This document shows positions 51,782-64,000 of a stretch of DNA of 64,000 nucleotides, one piece after another. Both the position numbers and the translations under genes were made by a program. How positions within the stretch are numbered: the stretch's first letter is position 1; each line of letters opens with the position of its first letter. Where the stretch lies: NCBI RefSeq assembly GCF_003096415.1, contig NZ_QEKH01000012.1:1-64000 (forward strand), given 5' to 3'. This DNA is from Victivallis vadensis (GTDB lineage Bacteria > Verrucomicrobiota > Lentisphaeria > Victivallales > Victivallaceae). Under the pieces are notes generated by a model. The model was not told where the DNA came from, made no database searches, and was given only the letters and a program-made list of their open reading frames with translations.

Positions 51782-52528
51782 ATGAAACGTGAAAGTTCGG
51801 ATGGCAACAGAATCGCGCTGGTGATCGGCGGCTGCCGCGGCATCGGCCGCGCCATTTCGCAGCGGCTGGCGGAGGATGGATTCGATATCGCGGCGACCGC
51901 GCGGCAGGCGGGGCCGGATTCGGAAGAACTGGCGCGGCAGGTCGCGGCGGCGGGGCGGAAATTCACGCTGCTGGCTTTCGATGTGCGCGACCGTGAAGCG
52001 GTGCGGCGGGAGCTGGAACGGGTGTTCGGCGACGGCGGCGCTCCCGAAGTCGCGGTTTACAACGCCGGAATCGCGCGCGACAATCTGATGGCGTTCATGT
52101 CCCCGCGGGAGTGGGACGAGGTGATCGAAACCAATGTGAACGGTTTTTACAATACCATCCAGCCGCTGGTGTTCGGGATGCTCGCGAAAAAGCGCGGCCG
52201 GATCGTCGCGGTCAGTTCCGCCTCCGGGCAGACCGGGCAGGCGGGGCAGGTGAACTACTCCGCCTCCAAGGCGGCGCTGATCGGCGCGGTGAAGGCGCTG
52301 GCGCGCGAAGTCGGGCGCAAGGGCGTGCTGGTCAACGCGGTCGCGCCCGGTTTCATCCATACCGAAATGACGCGGGAGATTCCGGAGGAGCGGGTGCTGC
52401 CGCTGATTCCGTTGAACCGGGCGGGGGAGGCCGCGGAGGTCGCCGGCGCGGTCAGTTTCCTGTGCGGGCCGGACAGCAGTTATATCCACGGTCAGGTGAT
52501 CGCCGTCAACGGCGGACTGGTCATCTGA
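51782..52528 (+). CDS. 3-oxoacyl-ACP reductase (FabG/ApeQ-like)
   Basis: 248-residue short-chain dehydrogenase. NADP loop VIGGCRGIGRAISQRL (residues 14-29), NAG motif VYNAGIARDNLM (92-103), and the catalytic Ser of SSASGQ with Tyr159 and Lys163 in VNYSASKAAL. It would reduce the 3-oxo group of an ACP-bound chain. The closing RVLPLIPLNRAGEAAEVAGAVSFLCGPDSSYIHGQVIAVNGGLVI is typical of FabG. First gene of the cluster; the ketoreductase of aryl-polyene clusters (ApeQ) belongs to the same family. The ribosome binding site is weak. Confidence 0.92.
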   Translation: MKRESSDGNRIALVIGGCRGIGRAISQRLAEDGFDIAATARQAGPDSEELARQVAAAGRKFTLLAFDVRDREAVRRELERVFGDGGAPEVAVYNAGIARDNLMAFMSPREWDEVIETNVNGFYNTIQPLVFGMLAKKRGRIVAVSSASGQTGQAGQVNYSASKAALIGAVKALAREVGRKGVLVNAVAPGFIHTEMTREIPEERVLPLIPLNRAGEAAEVAGAVSFLCGPDSSYIHGQVIAVNGGLVI

Positions 52529-52544: not shown

Positions 52545-54020
52545 GTGGGGCATTCCGGAGTACATTCGGTCGTGGTCGGCGGCGGTATCGGCGGCATGAG
52601 CATGGCGCTGCTGCTGGCGGCGGCGGGGCGGCGCGTGACGCTGCTTGAGGCGTGCCCGAAGATCGGCGGCTTCATGCAGCGTTTCCGGCGCGGCGGCGTG
52701 CCGTTCGACACGGGGTTCCACTTCACCGGCGGTTTTGAGAATGTGCTCGCGCAGATGCTGCAGGTGCTCGGAATTGACGACATGGTCAAAGAAGCGCCGT
52801 TCCGCAGCCGGATCTTTTTCGGCGAATCCGGCCGCAGGCTGGAGCTGCCCGGCGGCGGCGTCGATGCGCTCGCCGATTACCTCGCCTCGGAATTTCCGGA
52901 AAAGCGCGACGCGGTTTACGGCTATTACAAATGCGAAAAGGCGGTGGTGGAGCATACTCCGATGTTCGACCTGCGCGACCGCGACCTGGCGGAGAAGCTG
53001 ATGCTCAACGAGTACGACCTGATGACGCTGGACGAGTTTTTCGACCGGCTCGGCGTTGCGGGCGAGCTGCGCGCGGCGCTCGGCAGCGCGGCGATGTGTC
53101 ACGGCACGCCCCCGTGCGAATCCTCGGTCACGAACCATTGCCGGGTCAGCTTCGGGCTGGGCAACCATATCGCGCGGGTGGAGCGCGGGGGAGACGCCTT
53201 TATCGACGGCTTCCGGCGCGAGGCGGAAAAATTGGGAATCGAGGTGCGTACCGGAGTGCGCATCGCGAAGTGCCCCGAAGTGGTCGGCCGCCGCGAGTGC
53301 CGCCGGGCGGTATTGAGCGACGGTTCGGAACTGGAATTCGACGATGCGTTTCTGGCGATTCACCCGAAGGCGATTCTGGAACTGCTGCCGCCGGAGGCGG
53401 TGAATGCGTTCTTCCGCCGCCGGGTCGGGGAGATGGAGGACAGCTGCGGTTTCTTTACGGTTTCCGGCGTGATCGATCCGGCCGCAGAGGCGGTGCCGGA
53501 ATTGACTTCGTACCTCTCCACACCCGACCTGAACCGGATTCTGCTGCCGGGCGGCGGCGGCACCGGCACCGGCATGGTGATCGCGGAGGAGCGGGACGCG
53601 GCGGGGAAGCCGGTCCGGACTTTCACCGCGTTCGGCAGCGTGTGGCCGGAGGCGACCGCCCGCTGGAGCGAAAAGCGCGACGCCGCGTATTTTGAATACA
53701 AAGAGCGTTATGCGCAGAAGATTTATGATGAAGTGTACCGGGTCTATCCCGGATTGCGCGGCAGGATCGACTGGAGAGCGACCTCTTCGCTGCTGACCTG
53801 CCGCGACTATGCGCCGCCGACCGGCTGCGCTTACGGCGTGCGCCAGAAGCTGGGGTGTTCCCGGATTTTCGGACGGCTGCCGGTGCGGAATTTTTACGCA
53901 ATCGGGCAGAGCGCGCTGATTCCCGGGATGCTCGGCACGATGATGGCCTCTTTTCTGATGTTCCGGCAGGTCGCCGGGGAGGCCGCGTACTGGAAACTGA
54001 TCGAGGCGCGGCTGCGGTGA
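52545..54020 (+). CDS. CrtI-like FAD-dependent desaturase/oxidoreductase
   Basis: 491-residue flavoprotein of the phytoene desaturase/retinol saturase group. FAD motif VVVGGGIGGMSMALLLAAAGRRVTLLEACPKIGGFM (residues 8-43), with GGVPFDTGFHFTGGFENVLAQML typical of CrtI/CrtISO relatives, and a C-terminal flavin motif (VRNFYAIGQSALIPGMLGTMMASFLMFRQVAG). GTG start with AGGAG upstream. No other carotenoid gene is nearby; phytoene synthase is absent. Its position between the ketoreductase and ketosynthase suggests action on a polyene or acyl chain (desaturation, isomerisation or aromatisation). The canonical APE set has no such enzyme. Confidence 0.87.
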   Translation: MGHSGVHSVVVGGGIGGMSMALLLAAAGRRVTLLEACPKIGGFMQRFRRGGVPFDTGFHFTGGFENVLAQMLQVLGIDDMVKEAPFRSRIFFGESGRRLELPGGGVDALADYLASEFPEKRDAVYGYYKCEKAVVEHTPMFDLRDRDLAEKLMLNEYDLMTLDEFFDRLGVAGELRAALGSAAMCHGTPPCESSVTNHCRVSFGLGNHIARVERGGDAFIDGFRREAEKLGIEVRTGVRIAKCPEVVGRRECRRAVLSDGSELEFDDAFLAIHPKAILELLPPEAVNAFFRRRVGEMEDSCGFFTVSGVIDPAAEAVPELTSYLSTPDLNRILLPGGGGTGTGMVIAEERDAAGKPVRTFTAFGSVWPEATARWSEKRDAAYFEYKERYAQKIYDEVYRVYPGLRGRIDWRATSSLLTCRDYAPPTGCAYGVRQKLGCSRIFGRLPVRNFYAIGQSALIPGMLGTMMASFLMFRQVAGEAAYWKLIEARLR

Positions 54021-54037: not shown

Positions 54038-55264
54038 ATGGAAAAACGACGGGTGGTGGTTACCGGCGCGGGCGTGGTCAGCGCCCTCGGCGGCAGCCGC
54101 GCCGAACTCTTTGAAGCATTGCTGGCGGGCCGCTGCGCGGTGCGCCGGATGCCGGAGTGGTGCGCCGAACTGCCGGGCGTGCCGCTGGCCGCCCCGGTGG
54201 AGCTTGACCCGGAGATCGCGAAGCGGATCAACCGCAAGTTCCGGCGCTCGATGGGCCCGGCGGCGCTGTTCGCGTCGTTGGCGGCTTTGCAGGCGGCGGA
54301 GGAGAGCGGGCTGGATGCGGAGCTGCTCGGCTCCGGCCGCACCGGCTGCGCGGTGAGTTCGACGATGGGCAGCTCTTCGAGCATCGTCGAGGCGACGGCG
54401 CTGCTGCTTTCGGGCCGCCGCGAGGAGATGCCCGCGACGCAGTTTTTCAAGTGCGCATCGCATTCGTCGGCGTTCAACGTGGCGAACTTGCTCGGCATCA
54501 ACGGAGTGCAGCTTTCGCCCTGTTCGGCGTGCGCTTCCGGGCTGCAGTCGGTCGGGGCGGCGATGGAGCAAATTCAGCTCGGCAAACAGGATGTGATGCT
54601 CGCGGGCGGTTCCGACGAAGCGACTCCGGCGGTGGCCGGCTCTTTTGAGCAGCTCTTTGCACTGGCGGGCGGCGACGTGGAGCCGGAGCGGGCTTCGCGG
54701 CCGTTCGATGCGGACCGGCGCGGGCTGGTCTGCGGCGAGGGGGCCGGAATCCTGGTGCTTGAGGAGTACGGCCACGCGGTGCGTCGCGGTGCGCCGCTGC
54801 TGCTGGAGCTGACCGGCTATGCGACCAATTGCAGCGGGGTGCATGTGAGCCAGTCCGACGCTGCCTCGATCGAACGCTGCCTGAAGCTGGCGCTGGCGGA
54901 TGCGGGGCTGGAGCCTGCCGGAATCGACTATGTGAGCGCCCATGCGACCGCCACCGTGGCGGGGGACCGCGAGGAGGCCGCCGCGCTGCGGAACGTGTTC
55001 GGCGGTGGGGTTCCGGTATCGAGTCTGAAGGGGCATCTCGGCCATACGCTGGGGGCTTCCGGGGCGATCGAACTGGCGGCGGTGTGCGAGATGGCGCGCC
55101 GCGGCGTGGTGGTGCCGACGCTGAATCTGGAGCGGGTCGGCGCGGAGTGCGCCGGACTGGATTTGCCCGTCGCGCCGCGTGAAAAGCGGATCGGCGCTTT
55201 TGCGAAGTGCTGCATCGCGTTCGGCGGAGTGAACGCGGTGCTGATCGGTAAGAAATTATCATAA
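54038..55264 (+). CDS. beta-ketoacyl-ACP synthase (FabF-like)
   Basis: 408-residue condensing enzyme with the full catalytic triad: Cys165 in SPCSACASGLQSVGAAM, His302 in YVSAHATATVAGDREEAAAL and His336 in LKGHLGHTLGASGAIEL. It would elongate ACP-bound chains with malonyl-ACP. Starts MEKRRVVVTGAGVVSALG. The ATG at 54038 is seven bases after GGGAG; an ATG two codons earlier is too close. It pairs conceptually with the partial ketosynthase at the right edge, as ApeO/ApeR and ApeC do in aryl-polyene clusters. Confidence 0.93.
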   Translation: MEKRRVVVTGAGVVSALGGSRAELFEALLAGRCAVRRMPEWCAELPGVPLAAPVELDPEIAKRINRKFRRSMGPAALFASLAALQAAEESGLDAELLGSGRTGCAVSSTMGSSSSIVEATALLLSGRREEMPATQFFKCASHSSAFNVANLLGINGVQLSPCSACASGLQSVGAAMEQIQLGKQDVMLAGGSDEATPAVAGSFEQLFALAGGDVEPERASRPFDADRRGLVCGEGAGILVLEEYGHAVRRGAPLLLELTGYATNCSGVHVSQSDAASIERCLKLALADAGLEPAGIDYVSAHATATVAGDREEAAALRNVFGGGVPVSSLKGHLGHTLGASGAIELAAVCEMARRGVVVPTLNLERVGAECAGLDLPVAPREKRIGAFAKCCIAFGGVNAVLIGKKLS

Positions 55265-55293: not shown

Positions 55294-55572
55294 ATGACCA
55301 GAGAAGAGATCATAGCCGAAATCAATTCGATCTTCGTCGAGCAGTTTGAACTGGACCCGGCGGAGCTGACGGCGGAGAAGAAGATTTTTGACGACCTCGG
55401 GCTGGACAGCCTCGACATCGTCGATCTGATGATCGGGCTTCAGCGCAAGTTCGGGATTCCGCTGCGGCAGAACGAGGAGATCCGCAAGATCGTGACCCTC
55501 GGCGACGTGTATGAATTTTTCGTGAAACTGGCGAAGGAACGGCCGGAGTTCGCCGCGAACCTGAAGAAATGA
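55294..55572 (+). CDS. acyl carrier protein
   Basis: 92-residue acyl carrier protein. The phosphopantetheine attachment site is Ser39 in FDDLGLDSLDIVDLMIGLQRKFG. Acidic first helix (REEIIAEINSIFVEQFELDPAEL) and a longer than usual C-terminal tail (KLAKERPEFAANLKK). It would carry the growing chain between cluster enzymes. Only one ACP is seen here, while aryl-polyene clusters often have two; a second could lie beyond the right edge. The stop overlaps the next start. Confidence 0.95.
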   Translation: MTREEIIAEINSIFVEQFELDPAELTAEKKIFDDLGLDSLDIVDLMIGLQRKFGIPLRQNEEIRKIVTLGDVYEFFVKLAKERPEFAANLKK

Positions 55573-56321
55573 CGATGGCGCAATGGCGGCCGACACCGCT
55601 GATTTACACGTCGATGCTGCTCTGGACCGTTGGGTATTGCGCGGTGATGCTGCTGCCGTTCTGTGTGGCGTCACTGCTGCCGGAAGAGGCGCGGGGACGG
55701 TTTTCCCGGTGGGTGATTCTGCAGTACGGGCGCGTGATGGTCTACCGGGCGGTGTGGCCCTTTGTGCGCGTGAAGTTTGAAGACGGCGCGGCCGGGGAGA
55801 CGCGGCCGGGGATTTATGTATTCAACCACCGTTCAGCTTCGGACCCGTTCCTGGTCGCGACGTTGAACATTCCGGTGATCCAGGCGGTGAACGGCTGGCC
55901 GATGCGGCTGCCGTTCTTCGGCTTTTTCGCGCGGCGCGGCGGCTATATCGACACGACGAAACTGAGCTACGAAGAAGCGCGCGACCGGATGGGGCGGATG
56001 CTGGAGCGCGGGGTGTCGGTCGCGGCGTTCCCGGAGGGGACGCGCTCGGGCAGCCGCCGGATGAACCAGTTCCGCAGCGGGGTGTTCAAGGCCGCGCGGG
56101 AGCTGGGGGCGGTGATCTACCCGTGCTGCATCGTCGGCAACGAGGAGCTGCCGGACCGGCGGTTCCGGTTCCGGTGCGGACGGATCCGGGTGCGGTTGTT
56201 GCCGCCGCTGGCGCCGGAGGAGGTACGGAGCTTCGGCAACGCGTTTTTATTGAAGAATCACATTCGGTCCCGGATTCAGCGGGAGATCGAGCGAATGGAG
56301 GGAATTGCGAGCGATGAGTGA
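55569..56321 (+). CDS. PlsC-like acyltransferase
   Basis: 250-residue membrane-associated acyltransferase. One or two membrane segments near the N-terminus (about 12-40), the HX4D catalytic motif NHRSASDPF (His87, Asp92) and the phosphate-binding FPEGTRSGSRR (about 154-164). It would move the finished acyl chain from ACP onto a lipid or glycerol-like acceptor, the role proposed for ApeD/ApeJ-type proteins in aryl-polyene anchoring. It overlaps the ACP gene by four bases and the next gene by eight. Confidence 0.9.
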   Translation: MTMAQWRPTPLIYTSMLLWTVGYCAVMLLPFCVASLLPEEARGRFSRWVILQYGRVMVYRAVWPFVRVKFEDGAAGETRPGIYVFNHRSASDPFLVATLNIPVIQAVNGWPMRLPFFGFFARRGGYIDTTKLSYEEARDRMGRMLERGVSVAAFPEGTRSGSRRMNQFRSGVFKAARELGAVIYPCCIVGNEELPDRRFRFRCGRIRVRLLPPLAPEEVRSFGNAFLLKNHIRSRIQREIERMEGIASDE

Positions 56322-57603
56322 CTATTTCAGGTTGGAGCAGGCGATTGATTTTGCGCCCCCGGAGGAGATCCGGCAGATTCAGACGAAGCTGCTGAATGAG
56401 CACCTCGCCCGCTGCCGGAGCCGTTCGCCGTTCTACCGCAGGCGGTTCGCCGGGCTGCCGGAGCGGGAGGTTTCGCTGGAGGAGCTGGCGCTCTTTCCCA
56501 CCACCTCCAAGCAGGACCTCGCCGAATGTAACGACGATTTCACGGCGGTGCCGGAGGAGGAAATTTCGGATATCAGCTTCACCAGCGGCACCACCGGCGT
56601 CCCGTGCCGGATCTGCTACACCCGGAGCGACCTCGACCGGCTCGGCTACAACGACGCGCTCGGCTTCCTCGCCGCCGGGATGCGGGCGGGAGACCGGGTG
56701 CTGTTGACCTGCACCATCGACCGCTGCTTCATCGCCGGGCTGGCCTATTACAACGGGGTGGTGAAACTGGGGGCGGCGGCGATCCGCAACGGGCTCAACA
56801 CCATCGAGAGCCATGCGGAAATCATCCGGTTCCAGAAGCCGCAGGCGGTGGTCGGCGTGCCCAGCTTTCTGGTGCGGCTCGGCAACTACCTGCGCGAGAA
56901 CCGGATCGACGACAGTTCGATCCGCACGCTCGTGTGCATCGGCGAACCGATGCGCAACCGGCGGCTCGAACTGACTCCGCTCGGCGAACGGCTCAACGAG
57001 TTGTGGCCGGACCGGATTCACTCGACCTACGCTTCGAGCGAAATTGTGACCAGCTTCACCGAGTGTTCCGCCCGTTCCGGCGGGCATCCCCCCGCCGATC
57101 TCGCGATTGTGGAGATTCTGGACGAGGCGGGCAAGCCGCTGCCGCCGGGCGTTCCGGGGGAGGTCACGGTCACGCCGCTGCAGGTCGCGGGAATGCCGCT
57201 GGTGCGGTTCCGGACCGGCGACGTGAGCTTTCTGGTGCCGGAGCCGTGTCCGTGCGGCCGCCATACCCTGCGGCTCGGGCCGGTTCTCGGGCGCAAGGCG
57301 CAGATGCTGAAGATCCGGGGCACGACGCTGTTCCCGAATTCGTTCTTCGCCGCGCTGGACGGGATGCCGGAGGTGGCCGAATACTATCTGGAGGTTTCCG
57401 GGCGCGGCCTCTCCGACGAGGTGGAGATTTTCGTCGCGCTGAAGGAGCCGGGCATCGCCCTTGAGGAGGTCGCCGCCCGGCTGTACGGCCGTACCCGCAT
57501 CCACGTGCCGGTGCGCCGGGTCAGGCTGGAGGATGCGCATGCGAGGGTGTTCGGCGTGTCGCGCAAGCCGGTGCGGTTTTTCGACCGGCGCATTACGGAG
57601 TAA
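56314..57603 (+). CDS. PaaK-like adenylate-forming ligase
   Basis: 429-residue ligase of the phenylacetate-CoA ligase/coenzyme F390 synthetase type. ATP loop ISFTSGTTGVPCRICY near residue 88, YASSEIVTSFTECSARSGGHPP as the adenylate-binding region, and PLVRFRTGDVSFLVPEPCPCGRHTLRLGPVLGRKAQMLKIRGTTLFP, typical of PaaK. It would activate a carboxylic acid as AMP ester and load CoA or ACP, the step done by ApeH in aryl-polyene clusters, though ApeH belongs to a different subfamily. A PaaK-type enzyme favours an aromatic starter acid. No ammonia-lyase is seen in the window. Confidence 0.88.
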   Translation: MSDYFRLEQAIDFAPPEEIRQIQTKLLNEHLARCRSRSPFYRRRFAGLPEREVSLEELALFPTTSKQDLAECNDDFTAVPEEEISDISFTSGTTGVPCRICYTRSDLDRLGYNDALGFLAAGMRAGDRVLLTCTIDRCFIAGLAYYNGVVKLGAAAIRNGLNTIESHAEIIRFQKPQAVVGVPSFLVRLGNYLRENRIDDSSIRTLVCIGEPMRNRRLELTPLGERLNELWPDRIHSTYASSEIVTSFTECSARSGGHPPADLAIVEILDEAGKPLPPGVPGEVTVTPLQVAGMPLVRFRTGDVSFLVPEPCPCGRHTLRLGPVLGRKAQMLKIRGTTLFPNSFFAALDGMPEVAEYYLEVSGRGLSDEVEIFVALKEPGIALEEVAARLYGRTRIHVPVRRVRLEDAHARVFGVSRKPVRFFDRRITE

Positions 57604-57608
57604 GTGAG

Positions 57609-59057
57609 ATGTTCGATTCCGCGATATTTGATTTTACCGATGCCGAAATCCGCGAGGCGGCCGCCGCGAACCGGCTGCTGTCGATCGAGATAGAATTCAA
57701 CCGGCTCTGCAACTACCGCTGTCCGTACTGTTACGCGGGCGACCCGGAGACGGAACTGCCGGAGATGAGTTCCGAACTGGCCGATTCGGTGATCCGGCAG
57801 GCGGCGGAGCTGGGCGCGCGCAAGGTGGTGATCCTCGGCGGCGAACCGCTGCTCTACCCGGAGCTGGAACGGAAAATCGAGCTGGTGAACTCCCTCGGCA
57901 TGGGGGCGGAGATCTTCACCAACGGCGCGCTGCTCGACGAGGCCGCGGCGCGGATGTTCGCCGCGCACAACTGCCGGGTGGTGGTCAAGCTCAATTCACT
58001 CGACCCGGCGGTGCAGGCGCGCATGACCGGCGAACCGGAGGCGCTGGAGCTGGCGCAGCGGGCGCTCCGGCTGCTGCGCGAAGCGGGCTGCGGTGCGGGA
58101 AGAGTGGCGGCCAGTTCGGTGATCTGTTCGGAAAACGTGGACGGGATGCCCGCGCTGTGGCGTTACTTGCGCGAGCGGGAGATCCTGCCCTACTTTGAAA
58201 TGATGACGCCGCAGGGACGGATGCTGGAAAACCGCCATCTGATGGTGGAGCCGGCCCGGCTCCGGCAGGTGTTCGAGGAGATCGCCGCGATCGACGCGCA
58301 GTTCGGCTTTTGCTGGGAGCCGCAGCCGCCGCTGGTCGGCGGGAAGTGTTTCCGCCATATTTATTCGTGTCTGGTGAATGCGTCCGGCGACGTGATGCCG
58401 TGCGTCGGCGTGACCACGAAGCTCGGCAGCGCCGCGGAGCGGCCGGTCCGGGACATCCTTTTCGACAGCAGCGTGATCCGCGACCTGAAGAATTACCGGA
58501 AGATGATCAAGGGCCCCTGCCGCACCTGCCGCAAGGCGCAGGAGTGCTACGGCTGCCGGGGCGCCGCCTACCAGATGACCGGCGACTACCTCGCGTCGGA
58601 TCCGCTCTGCTGGCACAACATCGGGCGCGAAAGCGAGATTGCGGTCTTGCCGTGCGACGCGCGCAGCCTGGTGCCGCACAAGCCGCCGATGGTGATGGTG
58701 GACGAGGTGCTGTCGAGCGGGCAGACCAGCGAAGTGCTCGCGGTGATCCGGCCGGACAACCGGTTTCTGGACGGCGGCGGGGTGCTGGACCGCGCCGCGC
58801 TGCCGGAGCTGGTGTCGCAGGCGGGCGCGGCGGCGGATGCGTTCCGCAACGACGGCGCGGTGAAGCCCGGTATGCTGGTCGGCTGCCGGAAGATCGAATA
58901 TTTCCGCGATATCCGTGTCGGCGACCGGCTGGTCGTGTCGCTGGAGGAGACCGCCGCGCTGGACGGCTGGCATATCGTGGCGTTCAACGTCGTCAAAGAG
59001 GGGGAGCCGGATACGGTCGCCTCCGGGGAGCTGAAATTATGCGTACTGGAATCCTGA
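57609..59057 (+). CDS. radical SAM/SPASM protein fused to an ApeP-like dehydratase domain
   Basis: 482 residues. Residues about 22-250 are a radical SAM domain: CNYRCPYC (Cys34, Cys38, Cys41) and VVILGGEPLLYPEL. Residues about 250-340 hold a SPASM-like Cys-rich region (GGKCFRHIYSCLVNASGDVMPCVGV..., GPCRTCRKAQECYGCRGAAYQ, DPLCWHN). From about 345 the protein turns into a hot-dog domain: LVPHKPPMVMVDEVLSSG..., DNRFLDGGGVL, GMLVGCRKIEYFRDIRVGDRLVV, which matches ApeP-type 3-hydroxyacyl-ACP dehydratases (PHxPPM and xxGGx). The frame is continuous with no internal start site that stands out. The fusion implies a SAM-radical step linked to ACP-bound chains. No such fusion is part of the described APE set. 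Confidence 0.9.
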   Translation: MFDSAIFDFTDAEIREAAAANRLLSIEIEFNRLCNYRCPYCYAGDPETELPEMSSELADSVIRQAAELGARKVVILGGEPLLYPELERKIELVNSLGMGAEIFTNGALLDEAAARMFAAHNCRVVVKLNSLDPAVQARMTGEPEALELAQRALRLLREAGCGAGRVAASSVICSENVDGMPALWRYLREREILPYFEMMTPQGRMLENRHLMVEPARLRQVFEEIAAIDAQFGFCWEPQPPLVGGKCFRHIYSCLVNASGDVMPCVGVTTKLGSAAERPVRDILFDSSVIRDLKNYRKMIKGPCRTCRKAQECYGCRGAAYQMTGDYLASDPLCWHNIGRESEIAVLPCDARSLVPHKPPMVMVDEVLSSGQTSEVLAVIRPDNRFLDGGGVLDRAALPELVSQAGAAADAFRNDGAVKPGMLVGCRKIEYFRDIRVGDRLVVSLEETAALDGWHIVAFNVVKEGEPDTVASGELKLCVLES

Positions 59058-59668
59058 TCGCGCTGCTGGCGGCGTCTACGGCGTGCGCCGCGCCGCTGTC
59101 GGCGCAGTTCCGGGAGAAGCTCGCCGCGAACCTCGGCAAGGTGGAGACGGTCGAAGCCGCCTTCATCCAGAACCGCAGGCTCAAGTCGCTGGATATGACG
59201 CTGGCGATCACCGGCCGCCTCGCGTTGGAAAAGGGGAAGCGCATGGCGTGGCTGGTCCGCGAACCGATGCGCTACATGTGCGTGATTTCGGAGCAGGGCC
59301 TCGCGCAGTGGGACGGCGATTCCGGCGAGGTGCTGAAGCTCTCCGCAAAGCGGATTCCGTGGCTGCGGCTGATTTACGGCAGCCTCTCCGGCTGGTTGTC
59401 GGCGGACCTCGACGCGCTGGAAAAGGAGTTCACGGTCGAAACGTCCGGTGAACGGTCGCTGCGGCTGACGCCGCTGGACGCCGGCTTTTTCAAAGAGTAT
59501 GTGAAAACGGTCGAATTCGAGTTCGGCCCCGGTCTCGACCGGGTGGAGCGGCTCCGGATCGTCGAGAAAAACGGCGACGAGATGGAGATCGTGTTCCGTG
59601 ATGTGGTGAACAATCAACCGATTCCGGGGGAGAGATGGCAGCTTCCGCCTCCGTCGAACGCTTTCTGA
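59039..59668 (+). CDS. LolA-like outer-membrane carrier (ApeL-like)
   Basis: 209 residues with a signal peptide (MRTGILIALLAASTACAAPL). The mature part is like LolA: LGKVETVEAAFIQNRRLKSLDMTLAITGRLALEKGKRMAWLVREPMRYMCVISEQGLAQWDGDSGEVLKLSAKRIPWL...FTVETSGERSLRLTPLDAGFFKEYVKTVEFEFGPG. In aryl-polyene clusters a LolA-like protein (ApeL) acts with an MMPL exporter. The start lies 19 bases inside the previous gene, with GGGGAG upstream; the end overlaps the exporter by 34 bases, so translation is coupled. Confidence 0.88.
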   Translation: MRTGILIALLAASTACAAPLSAQFREKLAANLGKVETVEAAFIQNRRLKSLDMTLAITGRLALEKGKRMAWLVREPMRYMCVISEQGLAQWDGDSGEVLKLSAKRIPWLRLIYGSLSGWLSADLDALEKEFTVETSGERSLRLTPLDAGFFKEYVKTVEFEFGPGLDRVERLRIVEKNGDEMEIVFRDVVNNQPIPGERWQLPPPSNAF

Positions 59669-62600
59669 CCCGGCTGCTGATCCGGGTGATCCGGCGCCGC
59701 AGACTCCTCTGGCTGGTTTGCTGCGCCGCGGTCGCCGGTGCCGTCGCGCTGGCGGTGTTCGCCGGGAATTACGGCAACGATCTGGGCGAGCTCTTTCCGC
59801 CGGACTCCGAGTCGGGCCGCACTTTCCGGGTGATGCAAAAGAGCGGCCTGACCAACCGGGTGCAGCTGGAATTCGACACCGGCGACGCGGGGATCGAGCA
59901 GGCGAAGCTCGCGCCGTGGCTGGACCGGCTCGCGCCGCGCCTTGCGGCACTGCCGCAGGTGCGGCAGGTGGACTACCGGTTCCGCACCGCGCCGCTGGCC
60001 GATTCGATGCGCGAACTGCTGTCGTTCCTGCCGCAGTTGCTGCCGGCTCCGGCCCCCGGGGAGGCCGATCCGGAGCGGGCGGCGGCCAATGCCCGGCGGC
60101 AATTGATGTTTCCCGCCGCCGGAGCCGCCGCGATGGCGCGCGAGGATCCCTATGGACTGCGGGGAAAGCTGATGCTGCGGCTCAACGCGCTGAATGCGGT
60201 GTCGGGGCTGGCCTTTTCCCCCCTGTACCCTTTTATGGTGTCGGAGGACGGCAAGCGCGCTTCGATCGTACTGGATGTGACCGCATCGAGCGCCGACGCG
60301 GCGGCGAGCCGGGAGCTGGTCGGCGCGCTGGAGCGGGAGTTCCGCGACGCGCCGCCGGGCGTGGCGTGCCGGATTATCGCACCCCACTTGCACACCCTCG
60401 GCAACGAGGAGGTGTTGAAAAGGGATATCACGCGGGTCGGTATCTTTTCGGCGCTGTTCCTCGCGCTGCTCTTTTTCGCGATCTACCGGGGGCGGCTGGA
60501 GAGTTTCTGGATTCCGGTGATCCCGCTCGGCGCGGCGCTGCTGGTGCTCGGGGCGATGGCGCTTTTCTGCGACGAGCTTTTCTTCTTCATCATCGGCATG
60601 GGCGGCGGCATTCTGGGGCTGGCGGTGGATCACGGCATTCACGTGTACGCGGCGCGCCACGGCAACATGGGGATGCGGCGGCTCGGACGGGTCGGATTGC
60701 CGCTGCTGCTCGGCGCGGCAACCACGGTGGGCGTCTTTGGGCTGCTGATGCTGACCGGCATCGCGGCTTATGCGCAGCTCGGGATTTTCGCCGGAGCGTC
60801 GTTGCTGACCAGTCTGATCCTCTCCTATTTGCTGCTGCCGACGCTGCTGCCGGGGAGCGGCGGGCGCAGGCCGCGCTTCCCGGTTCCGCATCCGCCGGAG
60901 CGGTGGGCGGGCCGCACGGCGGCGGTCTGGCTGGTGGCGCTGGCGGCGGCGGTCTGGTTCGCGTCGGAGCTGCGCGTGAAGCTGTCGCTGTCGGAATTCG
61001 ACGGTTCGCCGCGTGAAGTCATCGAGGCGGAGGCGGCGTTCAACCGGGCGTGGCGGGTCGCCCCGGCTCCGGCTGTGCTGATGGTGCTCGCGCCCGACCC
61101 GGAGACGCTGGCGCGGCGCGGCGAGGCGTGGTCGGCGCGGCTGGCGGCGCTGCCGGGGATGGCGGGGCGTTCTTTTTCGCCGACCGACCTGTGGCCCTCC
61201 GAAAAGACGCGGCAGGAGAATCTGACAGCATGGCGCGGCGTCGATCTTGACCGATTGGAGCGGGAACTGGCCGCCGCAGCGCGGAAGCGGGGACTGCCCG
61301 CCGGGTTTTTCGCGCCGTTCTTCGCCGGAGTCCGGCAGGGAGTGGCGGAGCCGGGGACGGAGCCGCCGGCATTGGTGCGGGCGGTGCGGGACCGGATGGT
61401 GCGCGCAAATGGCGGCGGATATGCTGCGGTGCTCTTTTTCCCGGACGAGCCGGAGCTGGTGCGGGCGGTGCGCGCCGCCGCGGCGGGCGAGCCGGAGTGC
61501 GCGGTGGTGTCGCCGGGCGCTTTCGAGCAGATGCTGGCCGACGACTTCGGAGGGCGCTTCCTGAAGGTGCTGGCGGCGGCTGCGGCGGGGGTGCTGGCGT
61601 TGGCGGCGTTCTTCTTCCGCTCGGCGGCGCTGACTTTCCTCGCGGCGGTGCCGGCGGTGACCGCGATGGCGGTACTGGGGGCGGTGTTCGCGCTCTGCGG
61701 CACGGCGCTGAATCTGATCGTTTGCTTCACCGGGATCATGTTGGCCGGGCTGACCATCGATTACGGTATTTTCGCGGTGTACGCGGCGAAAGAGGGACGC
61801 GGTTCGACGCTGCCGGCGGCGATGGGGATTTCGGCGGCTACCACGGTGTTCGGCGCGGCGGCGCTGCTGTTTTCGTCGCACCCGGTGCTGTTCCATACCG
61901 GCTTTGCGCTGGTGGTCGGGGTGTCCGTCGCGTGTGCGGCCGGGCTGCTGGTGGTTCCGGCGCTGTGGACGCTTTTCAAGCGGCGCGGCTGGGTGGCCGG
62001 GGCGCTGCTGGCGGCGGTGCTGCTGGCCGGGTGCCGCAGCGATGTGTTTGAGGCGCCGGAGTACCCTCCGCTGGAACTTTCGCCAGCCGAAACGGCGGCG
62101 GAGCTGGCGGAGTGGAACCGGACGGCGCTGCCCCGGTTCCGCGCGCAGGCGAATCTGTCGATCGAATACTGGCGGGTCACGGTTCCGGCGCTGGCGCTGG
62201 TGCGCGGCGATTTGCCGGCGGAGCGGCTGGCCGCCGCCGGGCTGGCCCCCGCCGGGGCGAAGGTATTCGAGGCGGCGGGGGCGGGCGGCGTTCTGGAGCG
62301 GTGGGAACTGGCCCCGTACTTCCCCGGCGGCGACCGCGAGGCGGCGGCGCAAAGTGTGTACCGCGATCTGGCGGCGGTCTGGCTCGGCAATGCGCCGCAG
62401 CCGCAGGAGGGGATCGCGCCGGAGGGGCGTTTCGTGGAGTTTTCGCTGCCGCTGCCGGATGGGGACGAATTGCGTTACCGCTTCGCCGGAAAGCCGTTGC
62501 AGCTGGTGGAAAAGAGCTGCCGCGGTTTCTGGAAAAGGCGTTGGCGGGTGCGCTATTACGACTGGAAACGGACCGGCGGGCGCTGGAGCGTCGGCAATGC

Positions 62601-62682
62601 GGTTCTGGATGATGACGCTTCCGGGTGCCGGATCGTGGTCCGCACCCGCACGGTGACGCCGGAAGGAGGAAAAATTGAGTGA
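59635..62682 (+). CDS. MMPL-type exporter with a C-terminal lipoprotein-like domain
   Basis: 1015 residues. Residues about 1-785 are an RND/MMPL exporter: first helix at 22-42, a large loop (FPPDSESGRTFRVMQKSGLTNRVQLEF...), and two blocks of helices near 265-410 (GIFSALFLALLFFAIYRG...) and 645-780 (RSAALTFLAAVPAVTAMAVLGAVFAL...GIMLAGLTIDYGIFAVYAAKEG). After FKRRG at about 785 come GALLAAVLLAGC (lipobox, Cys800) and a beta-rich region with SIEYWRVTVPALALVRGDLP...WRVRYYDWKRTGGRWSVGNAVLDDD, which resembles the lipoprotein partner in aryl-polyene clusters (ApeN). One open frame covers both. Confidence 0.85.
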   Translation: MAASASVERFLTRLLIRVIRRRRLLWLVCCAAVAGAVALAVFAGNYGNDLGELFPPDSESGRTFRVMQKSGLTNRVQLEFDTGDAGIEQAKLAPWLDRLAPRLAALPQVRQVDYRFRTAPLADSMRELLSFLPQLLPAPAPGEADPERAAANARRQLMFPAAGAAAMAREDPYGLRGKLMLRLNALNAVSGLAFSPLYPFMVSEDGKRASIVLDVTASSADAAASRELVGALEREFRDAPPGVACRIIAPHLHTLGNEEVLKRDITRVGIFSALFLALLFFAIYRGRLESFWIPVIPLGAALLVLGAMALFCDELFFFIIGMGGGILGLAVDHGIHVYAARHGNMGMRRLGRVGLPLLLGAATTVGVFGLLMLTGIAAYAQLGIFAGASLLTSLILSYLLLPTLLPGSGGRRPRFPVPHPPERWAGRTAAVWLVALAAAVWFASELRVKLSLSEFDGSPREVIEAEAAFNRAWRVAPAPAVLMVLAPDPETLARRGEAWSARLAALPGMAGRSFSPTDLWPSEKTRQENLTAWRGVDLDRLERELAAAARKRGLPAGFFAPFFAGVRQGVAEPGTEPPALVRAVRDRMVRANGGGYAAVLFFPDEPELVRAVRAAAAGEPECAVVSPGAFEQMLADDFGGRFLKVLAAAAAGVLALAAFFFRSAALTFLAAVPAVTAMAVLGAVFALCGTALNLIVCFTGIMLAGLTIDYGIFAVYAAKEGRGSTLPAAMGISAATTVFGAAALLFSSHPVLFHTGFALVVGVSVACAAGLLVVPALWTLFKRRGWVAGALLAAVLLAGCRSDVFEAPEYPPLELSPAETAAELAEWNRTALPRFRAQANLSIEYWRVTVPALALVRGDLPAERLAAAGLAPAGAKVFEAAGAGGVLERWELAPYFPGGDREAAAQSVYRDLAAVWLGNAPQPQEGIAPEGRFVEFSLPLPDGDELRYRFAGKPLQLVEKSCRGFWKRRWRVRYYDWKRTGGRWSVGNAVLDDDASGCRIVVRTRTVTPEGGKIE

Positions 62683-63046
62683 AAAATCATTGTTGGCCAA
62701 AGCGTTGGAGGAGCGGATCGTCCGTTTCGGCGCGGCGGGGGAGGGAAAATTCGAGGCGGAACTCCGGTTCGACCCGGAGTTCCCGGGCTTTGCCGGGCAT
62801 TTCGAGGGCAATCCGCTGGTTCCCGGCGTCTGCCTGATTCAGGCGGCGGAGCTGCTGGCGGAACGGGCGCTGCAAAAGCCGGTCGCGATCCGTTCGATCG
62901 GGCAGGTGAAGTTTTTCCGCCCGCTGCAGCCGGGTGACAGCGGCGTGTTCACGCTGGCGGTTGAGGGAAGCCGCCTTTCCGGCTCGGTCGCGACCGGGCC
63001 GGGGGAACGGGTCTGCAAATTCACGATGGAGCTGGAAATGAAATGA
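62675..63046 (+). CDS. 3-hydroxyacyl-ACP dehydratase (ApeI/FabZ-like)
   Basis: 123-residue hot-dog dehydratase with the FabA/FabZ-type helix: FPGFAGHFEGNPLVPGVCLIQAAELLAER (His in AGHFEGNPLVPG, Glu or Gln on the helix). It would remove water from 3-hydroxyacyl-ACP to form the trans double bond that builds up a polyene. TTG start with AGGAGG five bases upstream; it overlaps the exporter stop. The canonical APE cluster has two dehydratases, ApeI and ApeP; here ApeI is this gene and ApeP is the hot-dog half of the radical SAM fusion. Confidence 0.9.
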   Translation: MSEKSLLAKALEERIVRFGAAGEGKFEAELRFDPEFPGFAGHFEGNPLVPGVCLIQAAELLAERALQKPVAIRSIGQVKFFRPLQPGDSGVFTLAVEGSRLSGSVATGPGERVCKFTMELEMK

Positions 63047-63516
63047 GAAGGCGCAAGCACTATTTCGACGCCTTGCCGGGCGATCCGGCCCCGGTGGCCG
63101 TGGAGGTGAAACGCAAACTGCGCTTCAGCGAGGTGGATGCGCTCGCGATCGCGTGGCACGGCCGCTATCTGCAGTTTTTCGAGGACGCGCACACCGAACT
63201 GATGCGCAAAGTCGGCCTGACCTATGAGAACTACGGCAAAAGCGACATCGGCGCGCCGATCGTGCAGTGTCATGTGGACTACTATATCCCGCTGGTGCTG
63301 GACGAGGAGTTCACGGTGCGCGCCTCGCTGTGCTGGAGCGACGGCGCACGGCTCAACGTGGAGTACCTGATCCTGAATGAAAAGGGTGAAACGGCGGCGA
63401 CCGGCTATACGGTGCAGATGTTTTTCCATGTGCGCACCCATGAACCGTATCTGTTGACTCCGCCGTTGTTTGAAGCCTGCCGCGAGCGGTGGCGGAAAGG
63501 GGAATTCCATGCGTGA
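63043..63516 (+). CDS. acyl-CoA/ACP thioesterase (4HBT type, ApeK-like)
   Basis: 157-residue hot-dog thioesterase. KRKLRFSEVDALAIAWHGRYLQFFEDAHTELMRKVGL is the 4-hydroxybenzoyl-CoA thioesterase signature (Asp at D-x-x-x-I-x-W-H-G-R-Y), followed by IVQCHVDYYIPLVLDEEFTVRASLCWSDGARLNVEYLIL. It would release or proofread ACP-bound chains. ATGA overlap with the previous gene and eight-base overlap with the ketosynthase that follows. Confidence 0.9.
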   Translation: MRRRKHYFDALPGDPAPVAVEVKRKLRFSEVDALAIAWHGRYLQFFEDAHTELMRKVGLTYENYGKSDIGAPIVQCHVDYYIPLVLDEEFTVRASLCWSDGARLNVEYLILNEKGETAATGYTVQMFFHVRTHEPYLLTPPLFEACRERWRKGEFHA

Positions 63517-64000
63517 CGCGGTGATCGCCGCCGCCGGGATGGCGACCGCCCTCGGCGACGGCGTGCGGGAAAATGTCGCAGCGCTGCTGGCCGGGAAGCG
63601 CGCTTTTTCGGAGCCGCGCCACTTCGACGGCAAGGGCGTGAAGCTCGGACTGTGTCACGAGCTGGACGGCGGTGACGGTTCCCGTGCGGGAAAGCTGCTT
63701 GATCTGCTGGCGGCCTCTTTCCCGGAAGCCGCGAAGCTGCCGCAGGAAGCGCCGCTCTATCTTGCGACCACCGTCGGCGCAATCGACCTGCTGGAACGGC
63801 AGGATTCAGAGGCGGAGCCGGCGGACGGCAGCGATGCGCTGCTGAAGCTCGCCCTCGATCGTTTCGGGCGGAGGCGGGGGATGCTGGTCGCAGCGGCGTG
63901 CGCCTCCGGCCAGCAGGCGATTGTGCTGGCCGCCGGAGCGGTCCGGCGCGGCGAACTCGATTGCGCGCTGGCGGCAGGCTGCGATATCGCGAGCGAATTT
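63509..64000 (+). CDS. beta-ketoacyl synthase, cut by the right edge
   Basis: 164 codons are visible and the gene runs off the window. It starts MRDAVIAAAGMATALGDGVRENVAALLAGKRAF and reaches MLVAAACASGQQAIVLAAGAVRRGELDCALAAGCDIASEF, where Cys of AACASGQQA is the condensing-enzyme nucleophile. The N-terminal half is shorter and more divergent than in FabF, which fits an ApeC-like second ketosynthase. The remaining catalytic His residues lie outside the window. Confidence 0.85.
   Translation, partial: MRDAVIAAAGMATALGDGVRENVAALLAGKRAFSEPRHFDGKGVKLGLCHELDGGDGSRAGKLLDLLAASFPEAAKLPQEAPLYLATTVGAIDLLERQDSEAEPADGSDALLKLALDRFGRRRGMLVAAACASGQQAIVLAAGAVRRGELDCALAAGCDIASEF

Follow-up and report, generated by a model that had tools for sequence, protein, structure and literature searches.

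Near the end of the 64,000-nt stretch of Victivallis vadensis DNA that was analysed here (the window; positions 1 to 64,000 of contig NZ_QEKH01000012.1), a radical SAM/SPASM enzyme and a dehydratase-like hot-dog domain seem to share one reading frame, which raises the questions of whether the two halves truly make up a single protein and what a radical enzyme might do when tied to a dehydratase. An earlier note, drawn from the sequence alone, had taken this fusion to mean that ACP-bound chains undergo a radical step when they are dehydrated. If the two-domain reading favoured below is right, a radical SAM enzyme and a polyketide dehydratase would be joined physically, and radical SAM enzymes that so far lack an explanation would be assigned, as a whole group, to the stage of the ACP-bound polyene.

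Translation of positions 57609-59057 on the forward strand, on which the other features located below within the window are also encoded, revealed 482 codons without an internal stop, as the earlier note had read the frame, with residues 1-338 making up the radical SAM/SPASM part and residues 342-482 the hot-dog part. The ATG has a Shine-Dalgarno-like GGAG 8 nt upstream, and no internal start near the domain border was found to have a convincing ribosome site upstream. The chance of one stop-free run of 482 codons at the local composition is about 1e-5. An AlphaFold2 model, built from 39 fused homologues, was confident over the full length (mean pLDDT 93.5), and a Foldseek search with this model gave the SPASM radical SAM enzymes SuiB, SkfB, anSME and PqqE as leading matches of the N-terminal part; for the C-terminal part, FabZ appeared from rank 28 onwards.

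A search for the same fusion in Lentisphaerota and other genomes, which the earlier note had suggested, returned dozens of full-length homologues from Verrucomicrobiota/Lentisphaerota, Omnitrophota and Geobacteraceae in which the fusion frame is kept; it is therefore due neither to chance nor to an assembly error. That most carriers are draft genomes, and that one pair of contigs shares an identical, evidently misbinned copy, could be cited in favour of an artefact of assembly or gene calling, but the full-length fusions are 40-57% identical and stem from independent assemblies, including the single-contig genome G080, and we regard the probability of an artefact as negligible. The expression of two separate proteins from the locus was likewise rejected, on the grounds of the frame being kept in dozens of genomes and of the lack of an internal ribosome site. 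In line with what had been noted before, no description of a protein joining a radical SAM/SPASM enzyme to a dehydratase hot-dog was found in the literature searched; the fused architecture appears to be undescribed, and it sits in a known type of cluster.

In Verrucomicrobiota, the protein was detected in 37 of 388 sampled whole genomes, with 29 intact full-length fusions, two copies with a degenerate radical core, five contig-end fragments and one radical SAM half alone; fusion is near-universal among these carriers. Omnitrophota contributed 12 carriers among 193 genomes, eight of them fused, and the phylum of a Geobacteraceae carrier 17 among 297, comprising one intact fusion, one degenerate copy and otherwise the radical SAM half alone. 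Nitrospirota and Bacteroidota were each represented by one record with a fused protein. Bacteroidota was rejected as a host, as its sole fused copy, in a Bacteroidales draft (L019), is identical to that on a contig of an Omnitrophota draft (L020), and either contig has probably been binned wrongly. The protein is absent from seven further Victivallis species, and its distribution is therefore patchy, in keeping with a secondary pathway that is mobile or easily lost. Two unusual frames were encountered in the survey. One of 727 aa (L045, genome G246) contains radical SAM, hot-dog and LolA parts with a signal-peptide-like stretch inside, and is either a true triple fusion or due to a stop that was missed in a draft genome. 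The other (L147, genome G1026) stems from Bacteroidota and is related to the radical SAM half; its 825 residues begin with a ferredoxin-like [2Fe-2S] stretch in the N-terminal part and include a long tail of unknown kind.

The radical SAM/SPASM identity of the N-terminal half, previously proposed from the CNYRCPYC motif and a later Cys-rich region, was confirmed by Pfam analysis. The radical SAM core covers residues 29-163 (57693-58097; PF04055, E 4.4e-21, above cut-off) and includes the CX3CX2C motif at residues 34-41 (57708-57731), which is intact in 35 of the 39 fused homologues, as well as a GGEP motif at residues 77-80. The SPASM domain (58347-58610) was matched by Pfam over residues 247-307 (PF13186, E 4e-6, 27.4 bits against a cut-off of 21.5). 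Seven cysteines (C247, C265, C304, C307, C313, C316 and C334) are invariant in all 39 fused homologues and are the presumed ligands of auxiliary Fe-S clusters; their spacing includes CX2CX5CX2C, the textbook SPASM spacing being CX2CX5CX3C. The CX3CX2C motif, the PF04055 match above cut-off and the radical SAM folds heading the Foldseek list place this half in the radical SAM superfamily, and the PF13186 match above cut-off together with the seven-cysteine set places it in the SPASM subfamily.

Assignment of the C-terminal half (residues 342-482; 58632-59054), with its PHKPPM motif at residues 356-361 and GGG at residues 389-391, required more than a Pfam search. Searched alone, the C-terminal 142 residues had no match in Pfam, and PF22817, the ApeP family of Pfam, found nothing in the genome, the hot-dog of the window included; the link to ApeP therefore rests on the family profile. 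Among the 39 family members, 24 matched PF22817 at E values up to 1, the best being 1e-5. As sole judge of this half, Pfam was rejected as misleading, since the family profile and the models give a hot-dog of the FabZ/ApeP kind. When the profile of the 39 hot-dog domains was searched against the PDB, the top match was 6qsr_B (E 2.9e-17), with an alignment spanning the whole domain, followed by the best FabZ at 1.4e-8; this chain B belongs to a structure entitled 'The Dehydratase Heterocomplex ApeI:P from Xenorhabdus doucetiae'. Comparison by hhalign over the whole domain gave E 2.1e-16 for ApeP of E. coli CFT073 versus 3.3e-11 for a canonical FabZ control. By structure alone, in the AlphaFold2 (pLDDT of the domain, 95) and Foldseek/VIA analysis, ApeP and FabZ were tied as relatives (Z 17.4 and 17.7). 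The ApeP-like identity suggested earlier is thus well supported by homology, the fused half being predicted from its sequence profile to be an ApeP-type hot-dog closer to ApeP than to FabZ.

Canonical FabZ, as in E. coli, has a catalytic pair consisting of the His of a GHF motif and a Glu of the next helix. An alignment, together with the title of a structure, revealed that the H48N mutant of an anammox FabZ alters exactly this GHF His. In the fused hot-dog the GHF His is absent, and the FabZ-type Glu (E400; 58806-58808) is present in 39 of 39 homologues. The His of PHKPPM was considered as the catalytic residue and rejected, being replaced by Gln in five of the 39 homologues and in most Omnitrophota copies; an anammox FabZ likewise has Gln at this position in the profile alignment.

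A candidate for the complementary residue is encoded 3.6 kb downstream of the fused gene, at 62675-63046, where the family profile of an ApeI-type hot-dog protein returned 3esi (E 8.8e-17) and 6qsr_A (E 6.6e-16) as its top PDB matches and aligned with E. coli ApeI by hhalign at E 6e-15. Its GHF His (H42) is present in 28 of 28 sequences, and the position of the Glu is variable and mostly occupied by Gln. According to published work (PMC8041823), ApeI and ApeP associate as a heterodimer that has only one active site. Since the Glu is kept only in the fused half and the His only in the partner, the predicted dehydratase would need both genes, and its active site is probably split between the fused hot-dog and the ApeI-like protein. 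The heterodimer and its catalytic residues are predicted at the level of sequence; going beyond the earlier note, the hot-dog is likely only one half of a heterodimeric dehydratase. Alternatively, the hot-dog may merely serve the radical SAM enzyme as a module for acyl-ACP docking or dimerisation, as might be argued from the lack of the GHF His and from its divergence from Pfam ApeP. This is improbable, however, considering that E400 and Q404 are invariant in 39 of 39 homologues, even where the radical motif is gone, that the partner with the complementary His is present in most fused loci reaching far enough, and that ApeP of the solved heterodimer aligns across the entire hot-dog.

The putative dehydratase halves are part of a cluster spanning 51.8-72.3 kb of the contig, past the end of the window. 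It begins with a FabG-type ketoreductase in the ApeQ/FlxB position (51782-52528), a CrtI/phytoene-desaturase-like FAD oxidoreductase (52545-54020), the ketosynthase KS1 (54038-55264; start set by homology), an acyl carrier protein (55294-55572), a lysophospholipid acyltransferase with an ApeD-like role (55569-56321) and an AMP ligase of the PaaK/FlxY type (56305-57603; FlxY E 8.7e-118, under its cut-off). The fused gene is followed by a LolA-like protein (59039-59668), the start of which overlaps the stop of the fused gene, an MMPL/RND exporter (59635-62682) with a lipobox-bearing C-terminal extension in the ApeN position, the ApeI-type gene, a 4HBT thioesterase with an ApeK-like role (63043-63516) and the ketosynthase KS2 (63509-64000 in the window, running to 64615). 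Outside the window, the contig continues with U1, a conserved 200-residue protein without a Pfam match (64612-65214), two B12-radical SAM enzymes (65205-67794) and, up to 72345, genes for GT2, an LpxL-like protein, ACP, KS3, KS4 and ACP. In total, the cluster contains four ketosynthase-type genes, three ACPs, two acyltransferases and three radical SAM enzymes including the fused one, and no enoyl reductase was seen in it.

The order of ligase, fused gene, LolA, MMPL, ApeI-like gene, thioesterase and KS2 is kept in most fused loci, ape-type neighbours being found in order in several phyla, while the B12 enzymes vary. No protein of the cluster is better conserved than the first B12-binding radical SAM enzyme (up to 81% identity), although several carriers lack it. 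The lipobox of the exporter (LLAGC) is located at residue 796, and the similarity of the extension to E. coli ApeN is marginal; in Geobacteraceae and several other loci, the exporter and the part in the ApeN position are separate frames.

The claim of a radical step at dehydration, as a consequence of the fusion, was not supported in the form given. The CX3CX2C motif is missing in four of the 39 fused homologues (L064, L074, L075 and L092), all of which have kept the seven SPASM cysteines and the hot-dog Glu. In a tree calculated from the SPASM and hot-dog part of the fused homologues, the loss of the motif needs three changes, and a single origin of all four degenerate copies was rejected (p 0.0006), whereas a single origin of L064, L074 and L075, from Verrucomicrobiota-type genomes, was compatible with the tree (p 0.44). 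As the four are not one clade and three of them may be, at least two independent losses must have occurred. A link of motif loss with the loss of the B12 radical SAM enzyme was considered and found not convincing, the first B12 gene being missing in three of the four degenerate loci but also in several intact ones. In L064, L074, L075 and L092, the presumed SPASM clusters would be present without SAM chemistry.

The radical SAM half, moreover, stands alone in most Desulfobacterota carriers; near these unfused enzymes no separate ApeP-like hot-dog was found, only canonical FabZ in two loci. The Lentisphaerae genome G394 has two versions, namely a degenerate fusion in the cluster and, elsewhere, a stand-alone radical SAM half that is intact and groups phylogenetically within the fused proteins. 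We conclude that the radical half is dispensable or replaced in the four copies without the motif. With the motif lost and the half split off, radical chemistry does not seem to be required for dehydration, and, from the sequences compared, the fusion is better viewed as a probable association of two catalytic modules than as proof of a radical step at dehydration. Because the domains can part, the radical step likely tailors the chain or its starter.

The reading that we favour with moderate confidence is that of a two-domain enzyme of a type II aryl-polyene-like pathway, in which a half-dehydratase acting with an ApeI-type partner is combined with radical tailoring of the polyene or its starter; the carriers of the pathway are mostly anaerobes. 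According to this proposal, the hot-dog would be the ApeP-type subunit of a heterodimeric 3-hydroxyacyl-ACP dehydratase, providing the acid E400, and would pair with the ApeI-type protein, providing the GHF histidine. The pair would dehydrate each 3-hydroxyacyl-ACP made by the ketosynthase and FabG, and the outcome would be a polyene, since the cluster showed no enoyl reductase. The SPASM-type half would cleave SAM at the [4Fe-4S] cluster of CX3CX2C and abstract a hydrogen, the auxiliary clusters serving in the oxidative tailoring of the same ACP-bound polyene or of a carrier-bound starter, and the tether to the dehydratase would hold the radical enzyme at the assembly line. From cysteine conservation, fold and context, tailoring of the ACP-bound polyene or its starter is the most likely task of the radical half, and either of these is its presumed substrate. 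It seems rather doubtful that the radical half, built into the dehydratase of a type II polyketide line, would specifically form C-C bonds in the ACP-bound polyene or rearrange it by other radical chemistry, and that its stand-alone relatives would include the radical SAM enzymes suspected of ladderane synthesis.

The strongest rival is starter-unit chemistry in conjunction with the adjacent ligase, where the radical half would make or modify a starter acid, for instance an aromatic one activated by the PaaK/FlxY-type ligase, and the tether would only position it. The ligase is the usual direct upstream neighbour of the fused gene and adjoins the radical SAM gene in several unfused loci (L097, L098 and L100), and aromatic ammonia-lyase (PF00221) and UbiC (PF04345) are absent from the genome (99.5% complete), so that a 4-hydroxybenzoate or cinnamate starter is unavailable by those known routes. 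However, the fused loci L122 and L127 lack a ligase match beside the radical SAM gene, the degenerate locus L099 has none within 20 kb, and the fusion partner is a chain-processing enzyme; we consider this explanation unlikely. For the favoured two-domain enzyme, the fusion together with the splits and motif losses found in nature names a substrate class, polyene-ACP or starter, and supplies built-in controls, and the open question thereby becomes testable in vitro. This would also give a handle on the role of radical enzymes in lipid clusters, including those suspected for the strained 'ladderane' lipids of anammox bacteria, where related enzymes have been candidates since 2009 without a substrate for an assay.

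A resemblance that the earlier note had not covered is that to published candidate clusters for ladderanes or polyunsaturated lipids (kuste3335-3352 of Kuenenia, Desulfotalea and Geobacter; Rattray 2009, Javidpour 2016). Rattray 2009 described the same kinds of genes in these three organisms and suggested that polyunsaturated lipids or ladderanes are synthesised anaerobically. Shared are radical SAM, phenylacetate-CoA-ligase-like and phytoene-desaturase-like genes as well as GT, ACP, several FabF and a membrane protein; different are that no fusion is mentioned and that FabZ is listed as a separate protein in the anammox cluster. At the unfused locus L100, the order is GT, FabZ, ACP, FabG, radical SAM, radical SAM and ligase, and Javidpour 2016 lists the functions of kuste3335-3344 in the same order, so that, judged by gene order, the radical SAM half would be related to a kuste ladderane candidate. 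Together with the antiSMASH calls of 'ladderane' clusters in Verrucomicrobiota and Omnitrophota (PMC9902471), these parallels speak for a cluster making ladderane-like or otherwise cyclised lipids, the radical half performing the C-C bond cascade proposed for anammox. Yet ladderanes are reported from anammox bacteria only, and Desulfotalea, which has such a cluster, produced polyunsaturated hydrocarbons instead. When the anammox genes were expressed in E. coli, no new fatty acids appeared and the kuste3342/3343 proteins were not detected; in addition, an ape-type polyene is suggested by the ApeI:ApeP pair, LolA, MMPL and thioesterase. Ladderane-type cyclisation by the radical half is hence possible but unsupported, and we consider it very unlikely.

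With the SPASM enzymes of the SuiB, anSME, PqqE and AhbD/NirJ families, the fused protein shares the fold, CX3CX2C, GGEP and a seven-cysteine SPASM domain; it differs in scoring far under every NCBIfam equivalog cut-off, in being tied to a dehydratase subunit and in being encoded in a polyketide-type cluster. Flexirubin clusters are similar in the FlxY- and FlxB-like matches of ligase and reductase, which are under the cut-offs, but here the genome is without aromatic ammonia-lyase and B12 and SPASM radical SAM enzymes are present. The cluster is close to the ape gene set of E. coli (Table 1, PMC8253772), to which it adds three radical SAM enzymes and the oxidoreductase; for this canonical cluster, a stand-alone ApeP and no radical SAM enzyme were found, as had been stated beforehand. 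As in the known ApeI:ApeP systems (6QSR; c1196/c1188 of E. coli CFT073; ApeH-ApeI/ApeP of A. baumannii), two unlike hot-dogs are encoded in one ape-type cluster, each of them most like one chain of 6QSR, and the PHxxPM motif and the FLDxxGxL loop are shared, a single composite active site being expected here as well from the sequences. Whereas ApeP is a separate gene in E. coli, and the A. baumannii fusion joins ApeI to the ligase ApeH, it is here the ApeP-type subunit that is fused, forming the C-terminus of a radical SAM/SPASM enzyme.
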